Below are positions 9,515 to 18,920 of a stretch of DNA of 29,351 nt, piece by piece (position 1 is the stretch's first letter; every line of letters begins with the position of its first letter). A program made the position numbers and the translations under genes. Location: the IMG/VR virus record IMGVR_UViG_3300021960_000352, positions 1-29,351 of that record; one strand, written 5' to 3'. Origin of the DNA: a virus. Under the pieces are notes generated by a model. That model was not told the origin of the DNA. It did not search any database and saw only the letters and a program-made list of their open reading frames with translations.

Positions 9515-10184
9515 AGAAACCAAAAAGTTATTTTATGGAAAATGGGTGTATAAAATCAGCCTGGTTATTCCAGGCTGTTCAGTACTACGTACTAAAAATA
9601 ATACTGAAGATCTAATATATTTTCTATCTGAGTTGCCTTTTAGTTTTCCTGCTAATCAGCATCCACAAAGTTTACAAGCACGAGCTTTGAAATCTAAAAG
9701 TACTTTACTAAAACTTAGTGAAACACTTCAGCATTATAACAAAAAAGATTATACAAAACGTATCGAAGGTGATTTCTTTGATGTATACACAAACAAAAAG
9801 AATATCATTGATGAAATAGATACAGAATTTTCATCTTGTGTAAGATTAATTAGTAAACCTAAAACTAAAAATCTAGACAAGTTGTTACAAAATGAACGTT
9901 CTATATTTGTAAAGGTTCTACCTAAAGAAAAATACGAATATAGAGTTTATTTGAAACCACATAAGGTTTCACAAGATAAAAAAGAGCCTTTTCTTACTTG
10001 GTTAAAAAACCAAGGAGAAAGCACTACATTAAGTCAAAGCCTAATTGATTGGTTTACAAATACTTCAATGAATTGGGATAGACGCTATATTTTAGTCGAT
10101 AATGAAAAAACTCTTTTAATGATTAAGTTACACTCGCCCGATGCTATAGGCACAGTGTACAAATACGAAGTTGTAGATAAATAA
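9498..10184 (+). CDS. Unrecognised 228-aa protein in the chaperone operon
   Basis: I do not recognise this family. The ATG at 9498 lies within the end of clpA (17-nt overlap), with GGAAA upstream, so it is made with the unfoldase. The protein is basic and soluble, begins MTPALKETKKLFYGKW, and has aromatic-rich beta-like segments (KWVYKISLVIPGC, KYEYRVYLKPHK, RYILVDNEKTLLMIKLH) separated by Lys-rich helices. There is no membrane helix, Cys cluster or nucleotide-binding motif. The position suggests a client, adaptor or substrate selector for ClpA, but that is inference from gene order only. Its TAA stop overlaps the next late promoter element. Confidence 0.65.
   Translation: MTPALKETKKLFYGKWVYKISLVIPGCSVLRTKNNTEDLIYFLSELPFSFPANQHPQSLQARALKSKSTLLKLSETLQHYNKKDYTKRIEGDFFDVYTNKKNIIDEIDTEFSSCVRLISKPKTKNLDKLLQNERSIFVKVLPKEKYEYRVYLKPHKVSQDKKEPFLTWLKNQGESTTLSQSLIDWFTNTSMNWDRRYILVDNEKTLLMIKLHSPDAIGTVYKYEVVDK
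10176..10183 (+). promoter_or_regulatory. Late promoter element GATAAATA (leaderless type)
   Basis: A perfect NATAAATA overlaps the stop codon of the upstream gene. It ends exactly 5 nt (ACACT) before the ATG at 10189. No Shine-Dalgarno sequence is present. Confidence 0.6.
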
Positions 10185-10551: not shown

Positions 10552-10559
10552 GATAAATA
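10552..10559 (+). promoter_or_regulatory. Late promoter element GATAAATA before the candidate internal-protein cluster
   Basis: A perfect NATAAATA lies in the 53-nt gap between two genes. T4-like spacing places the start near 10565, giving a short leader with TTAGGGGAC before the ATG at 10593. It probably drives much of the 10.6-17 kb cluster. Confidence 0.65.
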
Positions 10560-10592: not shown

Positions 10593-12050
10593 ATGCGCGA
10601 TATTATCATTAAACTCAAGCAAATTGAGGAATCACACACAGAACCGTCCGGCCCGCAAGTAGGCGACGAATTCGGTCTTAGTTTTTCAGACGATTTAGAA
10701 ATTTCAACCACTATTACAGACATTTTAGAAGATGGTATTGTTGTCGAAATGGACGACGATGCTATAGCACACATGACGGAAAATGGTGTAAACTTATATG
10801 ACGGCGAAATTACCGAAACAGAAGCACAAAAAGGCTTAGACGGTAAACGCTGTTGGAAAGGTTACAGACGTCAAGGCACTAAGATGAAAGGTGGAAAACG
10901 TGTAGATAATTGTGTTAAGGTAGGCGAAGGTATTGAAGAAGCAGGTGTTGAAGAAATGCAGCCTGTACATGATATGACTGATACAGAAAGAATGTTATCC
11001 GACATTGGTAGATTGATTGGCGACATGGCTAACGCAATTCCTTTGAAAGGTGCTTCAGATGATGACGTTCAATATAGTATGGATTTAGGACAATTAGGTC
11101 TTAAGTTAACCGACGGCGGAATTAAAAGCATGAAAGATTTGAAAAATTTCACCGATAGCGCAAGAAGTGATGCTGACAGACTAATAAAAGATTTTGAAGA
11201 AGCAGTTAAGAAATACAAAGCAGGCGAAAGATTTGATCGCAGTAAAATTAAAGACCCTAACCCAGAAACTGTTGATACTGGAGAAAGCGCAGAACTAGAT
11301 AGAGTTAGACAACTATCAGGTCTACAAACAGAAGGACATGGTCCTGAAGTTGATAGCTTCCTTGAAAAGGTTGCGGCAAATCCAGAAGAAGGATGGGACT
11401 TGTTGTATGATGCGGCAAGTGGAAAACACGGCGATAAGATTTATAAAGCTGTAATGGACATGTACAATGATGTATCAGCTGATAACGGTTATCACCCAGA
11501 TGATGATTTTGAAAAGATCTATGATCGCATGTTAGATAACATCGAAGCTGATTATGGTCCTAAAGAAAGTTTTGGAGAAAGTCAAATTTCAGAACTATCT
11601 CCAGAATTATTAAATCGATACAAAGATGCCGCTTTCAGTGATGCCGCAAAAGGAATGGCTAAAAAGAGAATGGGCACAATGTCTACAAAAGACGCTTACG
11701 ATAATGAGAAGAAACGCTACGCAGGTATTGATCAAGCCAAGTTCCTTTTAAAAATGAAAGCATTAAAAGCCAAGAAACAAGGAAAAATGTCAGACGATAT
11801 TAATGTCGATGAAGCAGAGTATCAAGGACGCAAAGTATCGCTAGGCAAGCCTACAAGAGGCGACGTTAAGAAGTTTAAAGTATATGTTAAGAATCCAAAA
11901 GGTAATGTAGTTAAAGTTAACTTTGGTGACCCTAACATGAAGATTAAAAAGTCTAATCCAGCAAGACGCAGAAGTTTCCGTGCTAGACATAACTGTGCTA
12001 ATCCTGGTCCAAGACATAAGGCACGTTATTGGTCATGCCGAAAGTGGTAA
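10593..12050 (+). CDS. Multi-module candidate internal head protein with protease-type cleavage sites
   Basis: This 485-aa mosaic protein is not a known enzyme. It opens MRDIIIKLKQIEE, a helix ending in hydrophobic-X-Glu like a T4 capsid-targeting peptide. A beta-rich domain (about 20-75) is followed by a two-Cys basic motif with CWKGY (C87, C107). A possible cleavage site IEE is at 114-116 and a helical domain at about 126-225. A second signal-like segment ends in LQTE (to E247) before an acidic domain (about 250-325). QISE leads into a helical region with LLNRYKDAAF. The C-terminal domain ends in a basic two-Cys motif (C468, C482) with SFRARHNC and ARYWSC. Similar modules recur in marine T4-like phages. 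A packaged, processed core or internal protein is my inference. Confidence 0.75.
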   Translation: MRDIIIKLKQIEESHTEPSGPQVGDEFGLSFSDDLEISTTITDILEDGIVVEMDDDAIAHMTENGVNLYDGEITETEAQKGLDGKRCWKGYRRQGTKMKGGKRVDNCVKVGEGIEEAGVEEMQPVHDMTDTERMLSDIGRLIGDMANAIPLKGASDDDVQYSMDLGQLGLKLTDGGIKSMKDLKNFTDSARSDADRLIKDFEEAVKKYKAGERFDRSKIKDPNPETVDTGESAELDRVRQLSGLQTEGHGPEVDSFLEKVAANPEEGWDLLYDAASGKHGDKIYKAVMDMYNDVSADNGYHPDDDFEKIYDRMLDNIEADYGPKESFGESQISELSPELLNRYKDAAFSDAAKGMAKKRMGTMSTKDAYDNEKKRYAGIDQAKFLLKMKALKAKKQGKMSDDINVDEAEYQGRKVSLGKPTRGDVKKFKVYVKNPKGNVVKVNFGDPNMKIKKSNPARRRSFRARHNCANPGPRHKARYWSCRKW

Positions 12051-12059
12051 GGAGAAGTC

Positions 12060-12404
12060 ATGCGCTTAATGGAGTTATTTTCATCGGATCCAACTAACCA
12101 AGATCCACGTTTATCCAAAGACATCAACTATCTCGATGATCTTAAATTCTATATGGATAACGATAATGAACAGTTGACAAATGTTTTATTTCCTGCTATA
12201 AAAGCACATAAAGAAAATATAGATGATGAAAGTGCTTATAGACATTATATGAAACCTATTAAAATCACAATTGAAAAATATTGTAACCAATTTGATTTAG
12301 ATGATATTAAAGATAAAATTTTCACAGACGAAAATCTAATTCAACTGGCAAAAAGATTTGCTGAAGAGCAAAAGGCACATATTGGAAATAAGGACTACGA
12401 TTAA
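12060..12404 (+). CDS. Unrecognised 114-aa acidic protein
   Basis: The N-terminus MRLMELFSSD resembles the short amphipathic targeting peptides of neighbouring genes but lacks the terminal Glu. The rest is helical and acidic (DDLKFYMDNDNEQL, HYMKPIKITIEKYC), with no catalytic motif or membrane helix. A strong AAGGAG site lies 5 nt before the ATG, and the stop overlaps the next ATG (TAATG), so it is coupled to the nucleotidyltransferase gene. Similar small proteins occur at this position in marine T4-like phages as far as I recall. Function unknown. Confidence 0.65.
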   Translation: MRLMELFSSDPTNQDPRLSKDINYLDDLKFYMDNDNEQLTNVLFPAIKAHKENIDDESAYRHYMKPIKITIEKYCNQFDLDDIKDKIFTDENLIQLAKRFAEEQKAHIGNKDYD

Positions 12405-14041
12405 TGAGATTATTTGATCTGTTCGAGGATAAATTAAAAACAGCCGTAATTGGTTTTGGGAGAATGAATCCTCCAACAACAGGTCACGGTGTGCTAGTGG
12501 ATGCTATCAATGCTAAGGCAAAACAGCATGGTGGTGATCCTATGTTATTTTTAACAATGACCCATACACCTTTTCTAACTGACAAAACACAAAAACTTAG
12601 ACCATGGGATAAAATTAAAAATCCATTACAATGGAAACAAAAACTAGAGTACGCACAAAAGTTTTTTAATATTCCTATTAGTACAGATCCTAGCCTAAAC
12701 ACTATTATGGCTGTTATGAAAAGTTTAGAAACAAAAGGCTACGAAAAAGTAGTTCTTGTTTGCGGTTCTGATAGAGTAAAAGAATTTGAAACACAAGTTC
12801 TTCCTTACAACAATACACCTGATCAATCAGGCAACATTGCTTTTAATATTAAAGAAGTAAGTGTAGAAGAAGGCGGATTTAGAGACGAAGAAGCAGATGA
12901 TGCTAGTGGCATGAGCGCAAGTAAAATGCGTGAAGCGGCCGCTACCAACGACTTTGAAAGTTTTAAACAGGGTGTACCTGTAGAAAGTTTAGCAAAGAAA
13001 ATGTTTGACGATGTACGCCAAGGACTTGGTATGAATCATCAAAAACAAACAGAAGATTTAACAGTAAAGCAACAGCGTCCTAAACTGGACGTTATATACA
13101 ATATAGCAGATCGCAAAGATGCTAAACCTTTTCCATTAAGTTATAAAGACACGGGCGGAGCAAGTACAGGTGGTATGGTTTATATTACTCCTGATGTTGC
13201 TAGAAAGTTTGTTTCTTTTTATGAGAAACGAGCAGACGACGAACAACAATTAATGCAGAAAGCACTTAAAAGTGTAAGTGGACTTAGAAACCTATTTAAA
13301 AATATTGGACTAGGTGATGTTGAAGTTAAGATGGATCCAAAAGCAGAACCTTCGGTTCCTAAAAATCCATTAGATGCATTACTCCAAAGTGAAAATGCTA
13401 CAGTTGTAAAGCCTATGGGAGCTCCAATCAAAAGAACTAATCCAGTTGCTAAAAATGCTAATGCTACTATTGGGGGCGGCGGCGCTGGCGCACACACAGA
13501 TCAAAAGAAAAGAATTAAAAGCGGATACCGTAAGCACAAAGGTAAGCAATACGATATGAATTCAATTGCTGAAGGCTATCGAGATATAGAAATCATGGGG
13601 CATACATATATGCCTGACGAAGATCGTGAAGACGATAACGTAAAGATTTGGCATACCATTGTGACTCCACAAGGTAAGACCGTTGACGCCGACTTTACTC
13701 CATACGCATATATGGATAAAGAGGATCTTAAACTTTATATTAAGTTAAAGTATCCAAAACGTCAAGGCGCAGGCCCTCTCGATAAAAAAGATCTACAGAA
13801 GATGGCCAACGCAATCGGTATTGCCAAACTTGATCCTGAAATGGCTAACGCTGGTAAAACCAATGAAGAAGAATACGATACGCAACGTGATAGAGATGCT
13901 GTAAGTGGTAAGCCACGTAAATCATACTTTACACCAAGTAAAGGTAAAATGTCTAAAGACGAACTTGCTAAAGCTAGAGAACGTAAAGAAAAAGCAGAAA
14001 AGGCCGCTGTAGATAATATTAAAAAAGCTCTGGGGAAATAA
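12404..14041 (+). CDS. Nucleotidyltransferase-domain protein with candidate capsid-targeting peptide
   Basis: A 545-aa multidomain protein. After an N-terminal MRLFDLFE peptide, residues 11-205 form a cytidylyl/adenylyltransferase fold of the NMNAT/PPAT superfamily. It has the HxGH-type motif in GRMNPPTTGHG (TTGH 25-28), GSDRVKEF (121-128), and the SxSKMREA loop (171-178) matching the family ISSTxxR. The substrate could be NMN or another nucleotide and cannot be read off. A middle region (about 215-320) is helical, then a Gly-rich linker (about 350-360) leads to a basic stretch. SIAE at 387-390 precedes a small C-terminal domain and a Lys-rich tail. It could act in NAD metabolism or, if packaged, as an injected host modifier. 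The superfamily is secure, the role is not. Confidence 0.8.
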   Translation: MRLFDLFEDKLKTAVIGFGRMNPPTTGHGVLVDAINAKAKQHGGDPMLFLTMTHTPFLTDKTQKLRPWDKIKNPLQWKQKLEYAQKFFNIPISTDPSLNTIMAVMKSLETKGYEKVVLVCGSDRVKEFETQVLPYNNTPDQSGNIAFNIKEVSVEEGGFRDEEADDASGMSASKMREAAATNDFESFKQGVPVESLAKKMFDDVRQGLGMNHQKQTEDLTVKQQRPKLDVIYNIADRKDAKPFPLSYKDTGGASTGGMVYITPDVARKFVSFYEKRADDEQQLMQKALKSVSGLRNLFKNIGLGDVEVKMDPKAEPSVPKNPLDALLQSENATVVKPMGAPIKRTNPVAKNANATIGGGGAGAHTDQKKRIKSGYRKHKGKQYDMNSIAEGYRDIEIMGHTYMPDEDREDDNVKIWHTIVTPQGKTVDADFTPYAYMDKEDLKLYIKLKYPKRQGAGPLDKKDLQKMANAIGIAKLDPEMANAGKTNEEEYDTQRDRDAVSGKPRKSYFTPSKGKMSKDELAKARERKEKAEKAAVDNIKKALGK

Positions 14042-14263
14042 ATGGACCTGGATACACTTAAAAAATTAGCGGGCATTAACGAATTCAAAGGTTACACACC
14101 CTACGAAGGGTCAAACATATCAGTAACCGGAACAGAAAAAAAACGTATAGAAAGAGAAGACAATATTCGTCCAGGTACTCCAGAATGGTTTAAACTTTGG
14201 TTTAGCAGACCGTACTGGAAAGGACAAGAATATCCACCAGGATTACGAGGACGAAAAAAATGA
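14042..14263 (+). CDS. Small basic protein with LAGINE leader
   Basis: A 73-aa protein starting directly after the upstream stop. It opens MDLDTLKKLAGINEF. The LxxLKKLAGxxE helix resembles an internal segment of the 10593 gene product (residues 235-247) and ends in Ile-Asn-Glu, a T4 prohead-protease-type site. The remainder contains GYTPYEGSNIS and RPGTPEWFKLWFSRPYW, a block that I recall from other marine T4-like phages. It ends in GLRGRKK. There is no membrane helix. It overlaps the IscA-like gene by ATGA. Function unknown. A packaged peptide is possible. Confidence 0.65.
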   Translation: MDLDTLKKLAGINEFKGYTPYEGSNISVTGTEKKRIEREDNIRPGTPEWFKLWFSRPYWKGQEYPPGLRGRKK

Positions 14264-14589
14264 TTACCTTGACTGAATCTGCTAAAGAAAAGATAACCAG
14301 TTTATTACAAGAAGAAAATGACCCTGGTTTAGCTGTCAGAACTTTTGTAGAAGGCGGTGGATGTCAAGGTTTTCAATACGGATTTACTTTCGATAAAGAC
14401 ATTGCTGATGACGATTTAGTAATTGAAATTAGTCAAGATGCCAAAATGGTAGTCGACAGCATGAGTACACTGTATCTAGCAGGAAGTACTATTGATTATA
14501 ATAACGATTTAATGAACAGTGGGTTTAATATTAAAAATCCAAATGCGGCAAGTTCTTGTAGTTGTGGAAGTAGTTTTGCGTGTGGGTAA
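14260..14589 (+). CDS. A-type Fe-S cluster carrier (IscA/ErpA/HesB family)
   Basis: A 109-aa scaffold or carrier protein that binds iron or an Fe-S cluster and passes it to apoproteins. The three family cysteines are in place: C35 in GGGCQGFQYGF, and C100 and C102 in the C-terminal SSCSCGSSF motif, nearly identical in position to E. coli IscA (35, 99, 101). The length is complete. The start overlaps the preceding gene by ATGA. Unlike its neighbours it has no capsid-targeting-like N-terminus, so it should act in the infected cell. HesB-like genes are known in T4-like cyanophages. Together with the phage ferredoxin it suggests control of host Fe-S supply. Confidence 0.93.
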   Translation: MITLTESAKEKITSLLQEENDPGLAVRTFVEGGGCQGFQYGFTFDKDIADDDLVIEISQDAKMVVDSMSTLYLAGSTIDYNNDLMNSGFNIKNPNAASSCSCGSSFACG

Positions 14590-14592
14590 GAT

Positions 14593-14934
14593 ATGAGAGC
14601 TAAAGAATTTTTAACTGAAAGAGAATATGTAGATATGATTAGCGATCCTCTAGCCTATACTAGAGAGTTTCCTAGCATGCCTAGTTCCGATCCTTATCTA
14701 ATGTATAGATTTAGTATGCAAATGGCAAACCATGAAGCACCACCAGAAGGTCCGGCAGCCAATCATGCTATTGTTACTACATACACAAAAGAAGATGATA
14801 AAATTGTAAAGGCCGCTGAAAAAGCATCAGGTCACAAAGGTAGACAACTTGCTAATCAATCAATGGACGAACCACAAGACACCAATACAGTAAGTCCAGT
14901 GGCACCAAAGAAGAAAAATAGGTATGGTGTTTAA
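14593..14934 (+). CDS. Conserved small T4-like phage protein with MRAKEFLTE leader
   Basis: A 113-aa protein. Its N-terminus MRAKEFLTE is strikingly close to the T4 internal-protein targeting peptide MKTYQEFIAE, with the same Glu-aromatic-aliphatic-X-Glu ending. The body contains PSMPSSDPYLMYRFSMQMA and VTTYTKEDDKIV, and ends in a Pro/Lys-rich VSPVAPKKKNRYGV. This matches, from memory, a protein family conserved in marine T4-like phages without known function. It is soluble, with no cysteines and no enzyme motif. The stop overlaps the next ATG (TAATG). I infer that it may be packaged in the capsid. Confidence 0.7.
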   Translation: MRAKEFLTEREYVDMISDPLAYTREFPSMPSSDPYLMYRFSMQMANHEAPPEGPAANHAIVTTYTKEDDKIVKAAEKASGHKGRQLANQSMDEPQDTNTVSPVAPKKKNRYGV

Positions 14935-16118
14935 TGAGAGCAAGTGAATTAGAATTACCAAAAGGAGTTAAAGTTTATCTAGACATGGATGGTGTTCTAG
15001 CAAACTTCTTTGAGGAATATGCTAAACTTGCCGGAGTAAAAAGTTATAGAGATGTTCCTCCTGCTAAAGTAGATCCTACACTAGACAAAATGGTAGGCAC
15101 AGACTTCTTTGCTAGACTACCTAAGTTTCCAGTTACAGATAAAATTATAGACATTTCTGTACAGGCCGCAGGCAGTTACGGTATTATTTCTAGTCCGCTT
15201 AGAAATGACTTTGCTAATTCAGAAAAACACAAAAGAGAATGGATTAAGAAACATCTAAATCCACAACCTACAGAAATTTTTATTACACCTAACAAAGAAA
15301 AACATGCTGTCAATCCAGATGGCACACCTAATGTACTAATCGATGATAGAGGATCAAATATTACAGCGTGGGAAAACGCAGGTGGTATTGGTGTTAAGTT
15401 TCAAGCAGACGAAGATTCACTAAAGAAAATACTCGATGGACTAAATCGTGCTAGACGCATTGGTACAGGAAAAGAAAAATTAGAGCCTCAAAATCTTAAA
15501 AGCAGAGACTTAGGCAAAATGATTGCTTCTAAAGATGACGAAGTTGAAGAAAACTTTGCTGATGGTAGAAAATTTGTTGAACCAAATTTTAGTAATGAAT
15601 GGGAAGAAGCAGAACGCTATCCAGAGTTTCAAAAGATTGGCAAGGATGCCTGGATCAAACTTGCTAAAAAGGGCAAGTCATTTACTATTAAAAGTGCTAA
15701 AGGTATTAACAATACAGATGCCGCAGATCCGGATAGTTTTAAAGAATTAGATCCAGCAAAACAAAAACGTGCCCTAGCACAACTTGAAAAAGGCACAATT
15801 GAAATGCCTATCGTTGCTGTATACAGTGATGGCCACAAAGAACTTGTAGGCGGTAACACAAGACTTACTGCTATGATGGCAAAAGACGGTCAAGCAACTG
15901 TGTGGGCATTTAAGGTTCCAGACGAAGTTGCTGAACTAGCAGAAAACTTTGCTGACGGTAAGAAAAAAGGCAAAAGCAGACCAGGTAGAGTAAAAAAGTC
16001 AGGTGCTAGTTGTAAAGGCAGTGTAACAAGTTTAAGAGCTAAAGCAAAAAAGTATAGTGGTGAACGTGCTAAAATGTATCACTGGTGTGCTAACATGAAG
16101 GGCGGAAAAGGTAAGTAA
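14934..16118 (+). CDS. HAD-type nucleotidase / ParB-like / basic-tail fusion protein
   Basis: A 394-aa protein in three parts. Residues about 15-175 form a HAD phosphatase like 5'(3')-deoxyribonucleotidases: DMDGVLANF holds the nucleophile and acid-base Asp, ISSPLR is motif II, and VLIDDRGSNI is motif IV. Residues about 207-335 look like a ParB/Srx-like domain, with MPIVAVYSDGHKELVGGNTR. Residues 338-394 are a basic two-Cys tail (GKSRPGRVKKSGASCKG, MYHWCANMK). The joints carry near-identical segments, VEE-NFADGRK (cut after 206) and LAE-NFADGKK (cut after 337), both of protease-site type. So it may be a polyprotein processed in the head. The HAD part could recycle host dNMPs. It starts on a TAATG overlap. 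Confidence 0.82.
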   Translation: MRASELELPKGVKVYLDMDGVLANFFEEYAKLAGVKSYRDVPPAKVDPTLDKMVGTDFFARLPKFPVTDKIIDISVQAAGSYGIISSPLRNDFANSEKHKREWIKKHLNPQPTEIFITPNKEKHAVNPDGTPNVLIDDRGSNITAWENAGGIGVKFQADEDSLKKILDGLNRARRIGTGKEKLEPQNLKSRDLGKMIASKDDEVEENFADGRKFVEPNFSNEWEEAERYPEFQKIGKDAWIKLAKKGKSFTIKSAKGINNTDAADPDSFKELDPAKQKRALAQLEKGTIEMPIVAVYSDGHKELVGGNTRLTAMMAKDGQATVWAFKVPDEVAELAENFADGKKKGKSRPGRVKKSGASCKGSVTSLRAKAKKYSGERAKMYHWCANMKGGKGK

Positions 16119-16172
16119 TACTATATGAACCCATTTGTTGAAGCACAATTTATATATCAAGGAGCAATGGCT

Positions 16173-16325
16173 ATGATTGGAACTGAAAGATATTGTAAAA
16201 AATGTGGACACAGATGTCACTGTTATCAACCAGATTGTAAAGACTGTGCTAACGATGTTTGTACACAGTGTGATTGTAAAAACGAAAAAGATATACCTTC
16301 GTCTTTTACACAGGAGAATGTTTAA
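16173..16325 (+). CDS. 50-aa cysteine-rich putative zinc-binding protein
   Basis: The protein has nine cysteines in about 30 residues (C8, C11, C15, C17, C22, C25, C30, C33, C35), plus two His. The pattern YCKKCGHRCHC and CTQCDCKN suits one or two zinc sites or a zinc-ribbon/rubredoxin-like fold. The start at 16173 is chosen over ATGs at 16125 and 16167 because AAGGAG lies 8 nt before it. The Cys-rich end resembles the Cys cluster in the 17982 gene product (CSHCDCNN). It is coupled to the next gene by TAATG. Function unknown. A nucleic-acid or protein-binding adaptor is plausible. Confidence 0.7.
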   Translation: MIGTERYCKKCGHRCHCYQPDCKDCANDVCTQCDCKNEKDIPSSFTQENV

Positions 16326-16951
16326 TGCGTATTAGAGATGTTGTAACAGAAAAAGCAGTAAGCAAAAAACAACAACAGTTTTTTGGTATAGTACGTGCTA
16401 TGCAGAAAGGCGACATGCCTAAAGACGGCGAAGCAGGTAAAGTTGCTAAAGACATGAAAAAGTCTGATGTTAAAGATTTTGCCTCTACAAAGCACAAAGG
16501 TTTACCAAAGAAGAAAAAGAAAAAAGAATCTATAGGCGAAAGTCAACAGTTAAATGAATGGGTATGGATGCTTCCGGCTCTCGCAACAGCAGTAAGAGTT
16601 GGTGGAAGTGCTGTAACAAGAATGTTAACTTCACAGGGTGCTAAACAAGTTGCTAAAGGTGTTGCTAAAAATTCAGGCAAGGCCGCGCAAGTAGTAGGTA
16701 AAACTATAATTAAAAATCCTGGTAAAAGTTTAGCGGCATATGGCGGATATAAGGTTTTTGAAACTGTTGACGAAGCACTTGAGTGGTTAAAAAGTTTAGA
16801 TCTTGGAGACCTTGCTGAAGATATTATTGTTGGATTAGCAAAGGCAATGGTAAAATATGCTATTCCAATTGCCGCTATTATTGCTGTGCTATACGGTGGC
16901 AAGAAACTTTATGATTATATGAAGGATCAGAAGCAGGAACAACCAGCATGA
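16325..16951 (+). CDS. DUF3008-like / membrane-active protein with MRIRDVVTE leader
   Basis: A 208-aa protein. The leader MRIRDVVTE is followed by a DUF3008-like block (about 13-61) with SKKQQQFFGIVRAMQKGDMP and DFASTKHKGLP. A Lys run (62-67) and LNE (76-78), another candidate protease site, come next. The second half is Gly/Ala-rich and amphipathic (LPALATAVRVGGSAV, GKAAQVVGKTII), with one clear membrane helix near 177-192 (YAIPIAAIIAVLYGG) and a charged end. Cleavage at E78 would release a hydrophobic, colicin-like fragment. I infer a possible injected or virion membrane protein. The DUF3008 likeness is from memory of the family pattern. Confidence 0.7.
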   Translation: MRIRDVVTEKAVSKKQQQFFGIVRAMQKGDMPKDGEAGKVAKDMKKSDVKDFASTKHKGLPKKKKKKESIGESQQLNEWVWMLPALATAVRVGGSAVTRMLTSQGAKQVAKGVAKNSGKAAQVVGKTIIKNPGKSLAAYGGYKVFETVDEALEWLKSLDLGDLAEDIIVGLAKAMVKYAIPIAAIIAVLYGGKKLYDYMKDQKQEQPA

Positions 16952-17190
16952 GAATTAGAGATATTATAGTAGAAGGCTGGAGCGAAAAATACAAAAGCTC
17001 AATCAACTGTGATAATCCTAAGGGGTTTTCACAGAAGGCGCATTGTGCCGGACGCAAGAAAAACGAAGAAGCCGCTGGTGTTGGTATTGTAACTAAACAA
17101 AACGCTACTGCTGATGTTCCTGTGGGCGGCGAATACATGAACGTTAAGAAACTGTTTCCAAACAAAAAGCGCAAAAGCAAAAAGCGATAA
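16948..17190 (+). CDS. Small basic protein with MRIRDIIVE leader and two-Cys motif
   Basis: An 80-aa protein. MRIRDIIVE-G is a model targeting and cleavage peptide (hydrophobic-hydrophobic-X-Glu at residue 9). It is followed by a block that recurs in marine T4-like phages, SINCDNPKGFSQKAHCAGRK, with two Cys and many basic residues. The tail (KKLFPNKKRKSKKR) is strongly basic and likely binds DNA. No enzyme motif is seen. It overlaps the upstream gene by ATGA. The simplest reading is a packaged DNA-binding internal protein of the head, like T4 IPs. Binding and cleavage are both untested inferences. Confidence 0.72.
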   Translation: MRIRDIIVEGWSEKYKSSINCDNPKGFSQKAHCAGRKKNEEAAGVGIVTKQNATADVPVGGEYMNVKKLFPNKKRKSKKR

Positions 17191-17193
17191 ATA
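17186..17193 (+). promoter_or_regulatory. Late promoter element GATAAATA (leaderless type)
   Basis: A perfect NATAAATA whose TAA (17188-17190) is the stop of the upstream gene. The core ends 5 nt (CAACT) before the ATG at 17199. The preceding bases offer no Shine-Dalgarno sequence. Confidence 0.6.
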
Positions 17194-17198
17194 CAACT

Positions 17199-17384
17199 AT
17201 GAAGTACCAAGAGCTTATAAAAGGATTTAAACTGTGGAAAGTTGGCGTAAAAGTTAATATGCCAGGATACAGTCAGGTCATTGATACTACGATTGTTGCT
17301 AAAAACAGAGAAATGGCACGTAGACTTGTACTAGCTCAATTTGGTAAAAAGAGCGTTGTTAGAACAGTAACGGAAATAAAATGA
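17199..17384 (+). CDS. Small conserved protein (61 aa)
   Basis: A compact alpha/beta-looking protein: MKYQELIKGFKLWKVGVKV, NMPGYSQVIDTTIVAKN, then a helix REMARRLVLAQFG and a final VRTVTEIK. It looks like a small folded domain of the type seen in several marine T4-like phages. The N-terminus is only partly like the targeting peptides of its neighbours (no terminal Glu). It has its own late element 5 nt before the ATG and is coupled to the next gene by ATGA. Function unknown. Confidence 0.65.
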   Translation: MKYQELIKGFKLWKVGVKVNMPGYSQVIDTTIVAKNREMARRLVLAQFGKKSVVRTVTEIK

Positions 17385-17626
17385 AGATTAGAGATATTAT
17401 AATTGAAAAAACTACTAGTGCTAATGTTGCTTCATCAACACCTGTAGCCGCACACAGCGGTGGTACATCTTATACAGGTTCACCTGGAAAAAGCGGTACT
17501 AAAGCACCTAAGCAAGCCAAAGTAGTACAGCCAAAACACCCAGACGGAAGAGCTAAAGGTGCTCATGAAATGCCAGCAAAAGGTCGTTTAATGGGCGGTC
17601 AGGGTCTAATCAAAAGATCTAACTAG
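17381..17626 (+). CDS. Disordered small protein with MKIRDIIIE leader
   Basis: An 81-aa protein. The N-terminus MKIRDIIIE-K is nearly identical to those at 16325 and 16948, while the rest is unrelated. It is low complexity, rich in Ser, Thr, Gly, Ala, Pro and Lys (GGTSYTGSPGKSGTKAPK, HPDGRAKGAHEMPAKGR), and likely unstructured and basic. The same leader on an unrelated body is a strong sign that the leader is a transferable signal. It overlaps the upstream gene by ATGA. Candidate internal head protein. Function unknown. Confidence 0.7.
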   Translation: MKIRDIIIEKTTSANVASSTPVAAHSGGTSYTGSPGKSGTKAPKQAKVVQPKHPDGRAKGAHEMPAKGRLMGGQGLIKRSN

Positions 17627-17628
17627 AA

Positions 17629-17636
17629 GATAAATA
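17629..17636 (+). promoter_or_regulatory. Late promoter element GATAAATA (leaderless type)
   Basis: A perfect NATAAATA, 5 nt (CTAGC) before the ATG at 17642. It follows the TAG stop of the preceding gene. The element lies where a Shine-Dalgarno sequence would otherwise be, and none is convincing. Confidence 0.6.
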
Positions 17637-17641
17637 CTAGC

Positions 17642-17977
17642 ATGAAACAGAATAAGATCATTCACGAAGCAGACGACAAACGTAACTACGATCACGAAGC
17701 CGATATGGCTAGATCGGAGTTATATAGATTAGCAGAGTATTCTGTTAAGTTGTTTAAGATGATTGAACCAGGTTCTAATTTAGAGGGTTGGACAGCATCT
17801 AAAATAACAAAAGCGGCTGATTATATTGGTAGTGTATATCACTATATGAAGTACGAATCAAAATTTGGTGATGACGATCAAGACGTTGATCGTGACGAAA
17901 TGGACTATGATGAGTCCATTAAAAAGGATCTTACAAATCAGTTAGCCGAGCAATGGCAACAACGTAAACAAGGATAA
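17642..17977 (+). CDS. Helical conserved phage protein with MKQNKIIHE leader
   Basis: A 111-aa acidic, helical protein. The leader MKQNKIIHE-A ends in Ile-Ile-His-Glu, a fit to the prohead-protease pattern. The core (about 20-75) reads DMARSELYRLAEYSVKLFKM, then EGWTASKITKAADYIGSVYHY. I associate that block with several T4-like phage proteins of unknown role, sometimes in head-related genes. The tail is acidic then basic (KKDLTNQLAEQWQQRKQG). No enzyme motif. It has its own leaderless late element. Confidence 0.7.
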   Translation: MKQNKIIHEADDKRNYDHEADMARSELYRLAEYSVKLFKMIEPGSNLEGWTASKITKAADYIGSVYHYMKYESKFGDDDQDVDRDEMDYDESIKKDLTNQLAEQWQQRKQG

Positions 17978-17981
17978 AACA

Positions 17982-18920
17982 ATGGACTTTAACGCAATCG
18001 TAAAAAAATTAAGAGATATTGAGCCTACAAACATCGCTAACCCCGATGCTGAAGCTCCTAAAGCAGACACAAAAGCACCAGTAGTGCTAAGTGAAGCGGC
18101 ACAACTACGTGTCAAAGCAGGCATTTCAACTGTACTAGCTGAATCAAAAAAGATTGAAGAAGCTAAAGGTTATTGCTCAGACAAATGCTGTGGTTCAGAT
18201 GTAAAAGCAGAAGATTGTACTTGTGCTTCATCTTGTAGCCATTGTGACTGTAACAACGTTAAAGAATCAGTAGAAGAAGGTAAAATGCCACAGGCTGCCT
18301 TAGATGCGTTAAAAAAGAAACAAGGTAAAAGTACTAAAAAAGATTCTAAAAAGTCTAAGAAAACTGATGACGATCAGACAGAGTCCATTAAAGTTAAGTC
18401 CAAAAAGTTCGATGAAGAAGTTGAAGATATCCTAAAGGCCGCTGAATCAAAACTTGTTAAAGAAGCTAAGAAGAAGATGCCTATGGATGATAACGGTACG
18501 CCAAATGACAAGTCAGACGATAAGCCAGCTTTCCTTAAAGGAAAGAAAGACACTAGCAAAAAAGACGCAGATAGCAAAGATGACAAACCAGCAAAAGGGT
18601 TAAGTGCTAAACAAAAGAAATTACCAGCAGGCTTACAAAAAGCTATTGCTAAAAAGAAAGGTGCTAAGACTGAATCAACAAAAGCTACTAAAAAAGCAGT
18701 TGCTGAATCAATGAGCTTCTTAGATGCTATTAAAATTGTAAAAGAAAGCAATGGTGAAATGAAAGTTTATGCTGTTGACACTGCTATTTGGAATTGGGCA
18801 AAGCGTGTGGCAAGTTCAAAAGTTACTGAAGGTGGTGTTAAACAAGAAGCATACGCCGCTAGAGTTTATGAAGGACGTGGCGGAGTTTGGGACGTTTCCA
18901 AAACAGTTATTTCAGAATAA
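17982..18920 (+). CDS. Lys-rich candidate internal/core protein with Cys cluster
   Basis: A 312-aa, highly charged protein. The start MDFNAIVKKLRDIEP is a helix near the Ile-X-Glu pattern, and LSE (36-38), LAE (52-54) and IEE (58-60) are further protease-type sites in a row. Residues 65-90 hold eight cysteines (CSDKCC, CTCASSC, HCDC). The middle (about 100-245) is a Lys/Asp/Ser low-complexity region like a scaffold or DNA-condensing protein. The C-terminal domain (about 246-312) is folded, with AIWNWAKRVASSKVTEGG and AARVYEGRGGVWDV. It ends the cluster before a strong terminator. A T4 gp22 or IP-like role is inferred from composition and cleavage sites. Confidence 0.7.
   Translation: MDFNAIVKKLRDIEPTNIANPDAEAPKADTKAPVVLSEAAQLRVKAGISTVLAESKKIEEAKGYCSDKCCGSDVKAEDCTCASSCSHCDCNNVKESVEEGKMPQAALDALKKKQGKSTKKDSKKSKKTDDDQTESIKVKSKKFDEEVEDILKAAESKLVKEAKKKMPMDDNGTPNDKSDDKPAFLKGKKDTSKKDADSKDDKPAKGLSAKQKKLPAGLQKAIAKKKGAKTESTKATKKAVAESMSFLDAIKIVKESNGEMKVYAVDTAIWNWAKRVASSKVTEGGVKQEAYAARVYEGRGGVWDVSKTVISE

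Follow-up and report, generated by a model that had tools for sequence, protein, structure and literature searches.

A cassette of unrelated proteins with a T4-like capsid-targeting leader, probably internal head proteins, in a marine T4-like phage

The 29,351-nucleotide stretch analysed here (IMG/VR virus record IMGVR_UViG_3300021960_000352, hereafter the window) is a 29 kb piece of a T4-like phage encoding clamp loader, DNA polymerase, sliding clamp and PhoH. Between its ClpA-like gene and the DNA polymerase lies a cassette of 14 open reading frames (ORFs), all on one strand (10593-18920), in which otherwise unrelated products begin with a similar short leader. The products of this block most likely accompany the DNA inside the particle, since they bear a common tag of a removable type and relatives of one of them have been found in purified virions. 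More specifically, they are very probably internal head proteins, which in this marine T4-like phage would be recruited by their tag, cut by a gp21-type prohead protease and ejected with the DNA. The short N-terminal capsid-targeting sequence would recruit each protein into the prohead core, after which the protease would cut behind hydrophobic-x-Glu, removing the tag and, in the longer proteins, also separating modules from each other. The basic modules and the enzymes (nucleotidyltransferase, nucleotidase) would remain around the packaged DNA and would finally be ejected into the host along with it. Capsid-targeting sequences are already known from the internal proteins of T4; what is new is that marine T4-like phages have the tag on a range of enzymes and basic modules, that there are polyprotein-like internal sites, and that a second, LKRLAG tag is shared with the C-terminus of the scaffold.

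A preliminary description of the window had quoted six short N-termini, all of which were found (MRLFDLFE in ORF 12404, MRAKEFLTE in 14593, MRIRDVVTE in 16325, MRIRDIIVE in 16948, MKIRDIIIE in 17381 and MKQNKIIHE in 17642; ORFs are named by their first position), and two helical leader forms, located in ORFs 10593 and 14042. These leaders have 8-19 residues, a basic residue 2 and a terminal (I/L)-x-Glu, with Val also occurring at P3. A strict pattern, M[RK]xx(x)[DEQKN]hh?xE, matches 6 of the 14 cluster proteins, where shuffling positions 2-14 within each sequence predicts 0.13; in the remaining 29 ORFs of the window it has no match. Because it was composed after the window had been seen, the relatives constitute the fair, independent test, and the clusters of five of them are enriched (G005, 4/11; G003, 4/9; G002, 3/7; G004, 3/7; G007, 4/6; each against 0.05-0.10 expected). 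In T4, a slightly wider, near-identical pattern gives five matches in 260 ORFs, among them both MKTYQEFIAE proteins. There was little or no enrichment of the strict pattern in HTVC008M (1 against 0.87 expected) and P-RSM4 (2 against 0.74). The loose rule (hydrophobic-x-Glu within 14 residues) is only mildly enriched (8 cluster proteins, 3.3 expected of 14) and was dropped as a stand-alone signal, being too common.

The leader and its reuse on different bodies are apparent in the sequences. PHROG and Pfam scans bore out the earlier statement that the bodies are unrelated, returning a nucleotidyltransferase, a 5'-nucleotidase-like protein (with internal sites), a DUF3008-like module, low-complexity basic proteins and nameless families, and relatives likewise carry the leader on unrelated bodies. 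The divergent contig G007 has four proteins with leaders MRAREFITE, MRASEFVTE (twice) and MRASEFITE. Contig G009, which also carries gp21, gp22 and gp23, has leader genes between gp16 and gp17, two terminase genes identified from their sequence and from the order of the genes. The IscA-like gene at 14260 is indeed leaderless, the LTE at residues 4-6 being part of the conserved IscA domain.

The presence in virions of the nucleotidyltransferase and other leader-bearing enzymes comes from published data on relatives only. According to three cyanophage proteome reports, the particles contain the putative cytidylyltransferase T4-GC190 in S-SM1 (Sullivan et al. 2010, PMC3037559), cytidylyltransferase 140 in S-SZBM1 (PMC9146016) and cytidylyltransferase 154 in S-CREM2 (PMC10665884), whose N-termini are MKKFSAFLNE/A, MRFRQFIIE/A and MKNFSSFLTE/A, respectively (here and below, a slash marks the putative cut). 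These enzymes are homologous to that of the cassette and have a T4-like leader, but identity to the cassette enzyme is below 40% and the C-terminal parts differ; the passages of these reports that were consulted do not mention the leader. S-CREM2 virions also contain a SAM hydrolase (MKDFDSFLEE), a kinase (MKRFDAFLTE), gp13 (MKDLHSFLTE), gp15 (MNFSEFNE), gp136 (MQTFSMFFSE) and a Cas9-like nuclease (PMC10665884). With the pattern widened to allow Asn at residue 2, the leader is found in 5 of the 28 detected non-structural proteins of this phage versus 2 of 156 undetected ORFs, both of 55 residues (P 0.001). The Cas9-like nuclease, gp12 (L166, 4705-7314, minus strand), shows an internal-protein-like LRFASFMAE/A some 25 residues into the protein as annotated.

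The features of the cassette and its upstream flank are the following.
10553-10559, + strand: ATAAATA, like a T4-type late promoter, 33 nucleotides upstream of the first cassette gene
10593-12050, + strand: 485-residue protein with helical leader MRDIIIKLKQIEE (10593-10631), CWKGY module, internal LSGLQTE stretch, and VDE/AEYQ before a basic C-terminal module; relatives have MRDILDRLKQIEE (G005) and MRDLLDKLQLLE (G003)
11814-12047, + strand: AEYQG basic module (phrog_7595), with VDE at residues 405-407 just before
12060-12404, + strand: 114-residue protein, leader-like MRLMELFS without a terminal Glu site; relatives MKLNELFSP
12404-14041, + strand: nucleotidyltransferase of the cytidylyltransferase family (phrog_3041/395), leader at 12404-12427
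14042-14263, + strand: 73-residue basic protein with LKKLAG-type leader MDLDTLKKLAGINE (14042-14083)
14260-14589, + strand: IscA-like Fe-S assembly protein (PF01521, E 1e-19), leaderless internal contrast
14593-14934, + strand: 113-residue protein, leader at 14593-14619; family members MRAREFITE (G007) and MKITEIIAE (G009)
14934-16118, + strand: 5'-nucleotidase-like protein (phrog_2643), with VEE/NFADG after residue 206 and LAE/NFADG after residue 337
15945-16115, + strand: NFADG basic module, which in relative G003 has its own leader, MRIFELVE
16325-16951, + strand: 208-residue protein, leader at 16325-16351, DUF3008-like module, further sites IGE/S and LNE/W, hydrophobic C-terminal part
16352-16516, + strand: DUF3008-like module, beginning KAVSKKQQQFFG..., following MRIRDVVTE
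16948-17190, + strand: 80-residue basic protein, leader at 16948-16974, WSxKYKxSINC module
17187-17193, + strand: ATAAATA, 5 nucleotides upstream of ORF 17199
17199-17384, + strand: 61-residue protein MKYQELIKGFK, targeting-sequence-like start without a Glu site
17381-17626, + strand: 81-residue low-complexity basic protein, leader at 17381-17407; relatives MKIRDIIVE and MKIRDIVLE
17630-17636, + strand: ATAAATA, 5 nucleotides upstream of ORF 17642
17642-17977, + strand: 111-residue protein, leader at 17642-17668; relatives MKHSKIIHE and MEKKVSIINE
17982-18920, + strand: 312-residue protein, the weakest member, with 11 hydrophobic-x-Glu sites and the start MDFNAIVKKLRDIEP

Four mobile basic modules recur behind a leader or within longer proteins; that with WSxKYKxSINC, for example, is fused in G003 within a 325-residue protein, after YIEE. 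Glu precedes the module in all 43 distinct upstream contexts and hydrophobic-x-Glu in 41 of them, against a background of 2.6% over the positions of these proteins, although these contexts partly share ancestry, so that a formal P is indicative only. The motif is found in 12 of 12 distinct contexts of the AEYQG module, and HTVC008M has it there despite its weak leader enrichment. For the DUF3008-like module the junction Glu is found in 14 of 14, with MRIRDVVTE/KAVSKKQQ in the window, KTESINE/KAVSKKQQ inside another protein and KEEVLHE/KSVSKKQQ in S-PM2 and S-RIM32. In three complete gp21-bearing phages (HTVC008M, C48C1 and immuto) the AEYQG module is preceded by PLEE, ELTE or ELDE, whereas in Kolga, CRP-901, HTVC111P and CRP-235, which have no gp21-family protease, it begins at Met (MAKYQGR, MATYKGK, MAKYKGR and MAIDKAR). 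In the DUF3008 proteins of Rhizobium and Agrobacterium, the module opens with MPAKS.

A gp21-family protease was found in more complete relatives that have the leader or the modules (G007, G008, G009, G012, G013, S-SM1, S-SZBM1, S-CREM2 and HTVC008M), and the gp23 major capsid proteins of relatives bear a similar site (YLKE/NASAGS, MLAE/NATAGS, MINE/ASPTNS). T4 gp23, which is cleaved after residue 65, has a comparable sequence there, FLTE/AEIGG. Given that the junction Glu is conserved, and absent from the AEYQG modules of gp21-less phages, the hydrophobic-x-Glu sites look like prohead-protease sites. As several of them are internal, some cassette products appear polyprotein-like. The capsid-targeting reading of the preliminary description, supported by the junction Glu, by gp21 in relatives and by homologues in the virions of three cyanophages, thus needs to be extended in this respect. 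AlphaFold predicted the structures of the AEYQG and NFADG modules with low confidence only (mean predicted local distance difference test scores of 49 and 66).

Several further observations concern these modules and starts. The 14934 protein begins MRASELELP, with no clean site near the N-terminus and two internal ones; its VEE/NFADG (15543-15566) is an extra site lying before the one at the C-terminal module, so that the junction looks duplicated. Stand-alone basic AEYQG proteins are found in small Pelagibacter/Roseobacter phages lacking a gp21-family protease (L150, 2998-3237; L151, 2998-3255; L154, 2498-2779; L157, 2390-2629). DUF3008 modules start straight at Met in T4-like-looking phages (L035, 8260-9717; L156, 5995-6468), and this module is therefore not always tagged. 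Members of the family of ORF 12060 (also L090, 9413-9748, minus strand) begin like a leader but lack the Glu, and a neighbouring G003 gene starts MKLNELFSE; proteins of this family are possibly packaged but uncut.

The tag of ORF 14042 and its relatives is of another type, consisting of a short acidic stretch followed by LK(K/R/E/T)LAG(I/V)xE. Three phages (G007, G009 and G013) have a gp22 scaffold (phrog_10922) terminating in ...KRLAGL(N), and the L035 protein encoded at the gp22 position terminates in FKKLAGII. This suggests that LKRLAG may be a docking motif common to the ORF 14042 family and gp22 in the prohead core. The motif is not universal, since it is missing from the gp22 C-termini of T4, S-SM1 and S-SZBM1. 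The cassette does not occupy the position of a gp22-type scaffold gene, next to gp21/gp23, and LKRLAG is the only feature shared with it. Regarding expression, all seven ATAAATA motifs of the window are on the + strand, each before a gene start, and this placement, including the motif 33 nucleotides before the cassette, is consistent with T4-type late expression. The ATAAATA-to-ATG spacing is bimodal in the window (for example 10177-10183, 17187-17193 and 17630-17636) and the relatives' contigs, with a sharp peak at 5 nucleotides (14 of 86 within 60 nucleotides) and a broad class at 15-36 nucleotides, and some motifs overlap the upstream stop codon. A start codon 5 nucleotides past a late -10 element would, if real, imply leaderless or near-leaderless late mRNAs.

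Among known systems, T4 IPII and IPIII carry the capsid-targeting sequence MKTYQEFIAE, which is cut by gp21 (PMC9026906). The cassette shares with them a tag of about 10 residues with Lys/Arg at position 2, aromatic or aliphatic residues and hydrophobic-x-Glu, as well as dissimilar, basic bodies. It differs in that the tag is on more proteins, enzymes included, that sites also lie between modules and that Val is common at P3; PHROG and Pfam scans matched the bodies to no T4 internal protein family, giving no mature-body homology to IPI-IPIII. T4 Alt, an ADP-ribosyltransferase, is packaged in the head and cut at both termini by gp21 (PMC9026906). The cassette enzymes, different from Alt and without homology to it in the family scans, would likewise be processed at gp21 sites, including at a non-N-terminal position. 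An N-terminal signal also sends P1 DarB into the phage head, but that signal is longer, has no consensus among Dar proteins and belongs to another phage type (PMC9024508). In phiKZ and SPN3US many packaged proteins are cut after Glu (x-x-Glu) by a gp21-like prohead protease; unlike in the cassette, the phiKZ motif is S/A-x-E and there is no common short-leader cassette (PMC9026906). A literature search on DUF3008 and cyanophage capsid targeting, with most subscription papers outside its scope, found no earlier description.

Some points weigh against the assignment to internal head proteins. The strict pattern was derived from the window itself, gp21 is found neither on the 29 kb fragment nor on those of the closest relatives (G002-G006), and leaderless DUF3008 proteins occur in the T4-like phages S-SM2 and L035. 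The majority of detected virion proteins have no leader, and with the pattern left unwidened the S-CREM2 association is weaker (3 of 51 detected versus 0 of 156 undetected, P 0.014). Moreover, the S-CREM2 authors consider that such proteins may be carry-over in the caesium chloride preparation (PMC10665884); for the leader-bearing ones, the leader argues against contamination.

It is possible, though on balance doubtful, that the cassette proteins, once inside the prohead and cleaved by gp21, serve in assembly (as core or scaffold, like T4 gp67/gp68) or only condense the DNA, with no delivery to the host. The majority of modules are small and basic, LKRLAG is common to the cassette and gp22, and a small portal-adjacent protein in G007 and G009 has a leader-like start (MILTELFQ or MNIFELFD), all of which would fit such a role. 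However, two members are enzyme-like, the leader-bearers packaged in S-CREM2 include the SAM hydrolase and the kinase, and the cassette varies among relatives, whereas core scaffold genes do not.

It is improbable that the Glu at the junctions plays a structural part in the module that follows it, and that the N-termini resemble those of T4 by convergence, with no cleavage. The junction Glu is invariant, as a structural residue should be, yet a single P3-P1 motif stands before four unrelated modules, and both the AEYQG modules of the four gp21-less phages and bacterial DUF3008 proteins do without it. Recent gene duplication, with the leader kept by descent and no role in targeting, is slightly less credible still: MRIRDVVTE, MRIRDIIVE and MKIRDIIIE are near-identical and their genes close by, but the bodies are unrelated, homologues have been detected in virions, and the other leader version on four G007 proteins (MRASEF[VI]TE, MRAREFITE) indicates that the tag is maintained independently. 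An over-reading of Glu-rich N-termini by chance, conceivable from the frequency of hydrophobic-x-Glu alone, has a negligible probability and is already contradicted by the strict-pattern excess, repeated in five relatives.

If the cassette proteins are indeed internal head proteins, the leader is a readable sequence signal for phage proteins that travel in the particle, and it allows hypothetical proteins to be placed in the head interior for marine phages that are very abundant. Proteomic studies of cyanophages have repeatedly detected enzymes in virions, but had no mechanism for this and could not exclude contamination; the leader offers both a mechanism and a test. It seems to us an even chance that marine T4-like phages possess a modular system for head cargo, in which interchangeable tags (T4-like leader or LKRLAG) and protease-cut polyprotein modules allow almost any enzyme or DNA-binding module to be loaded and delivered. 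Such a system, if it exists, would explain the metabolic and defence-related enzymes in cyanophage virions.

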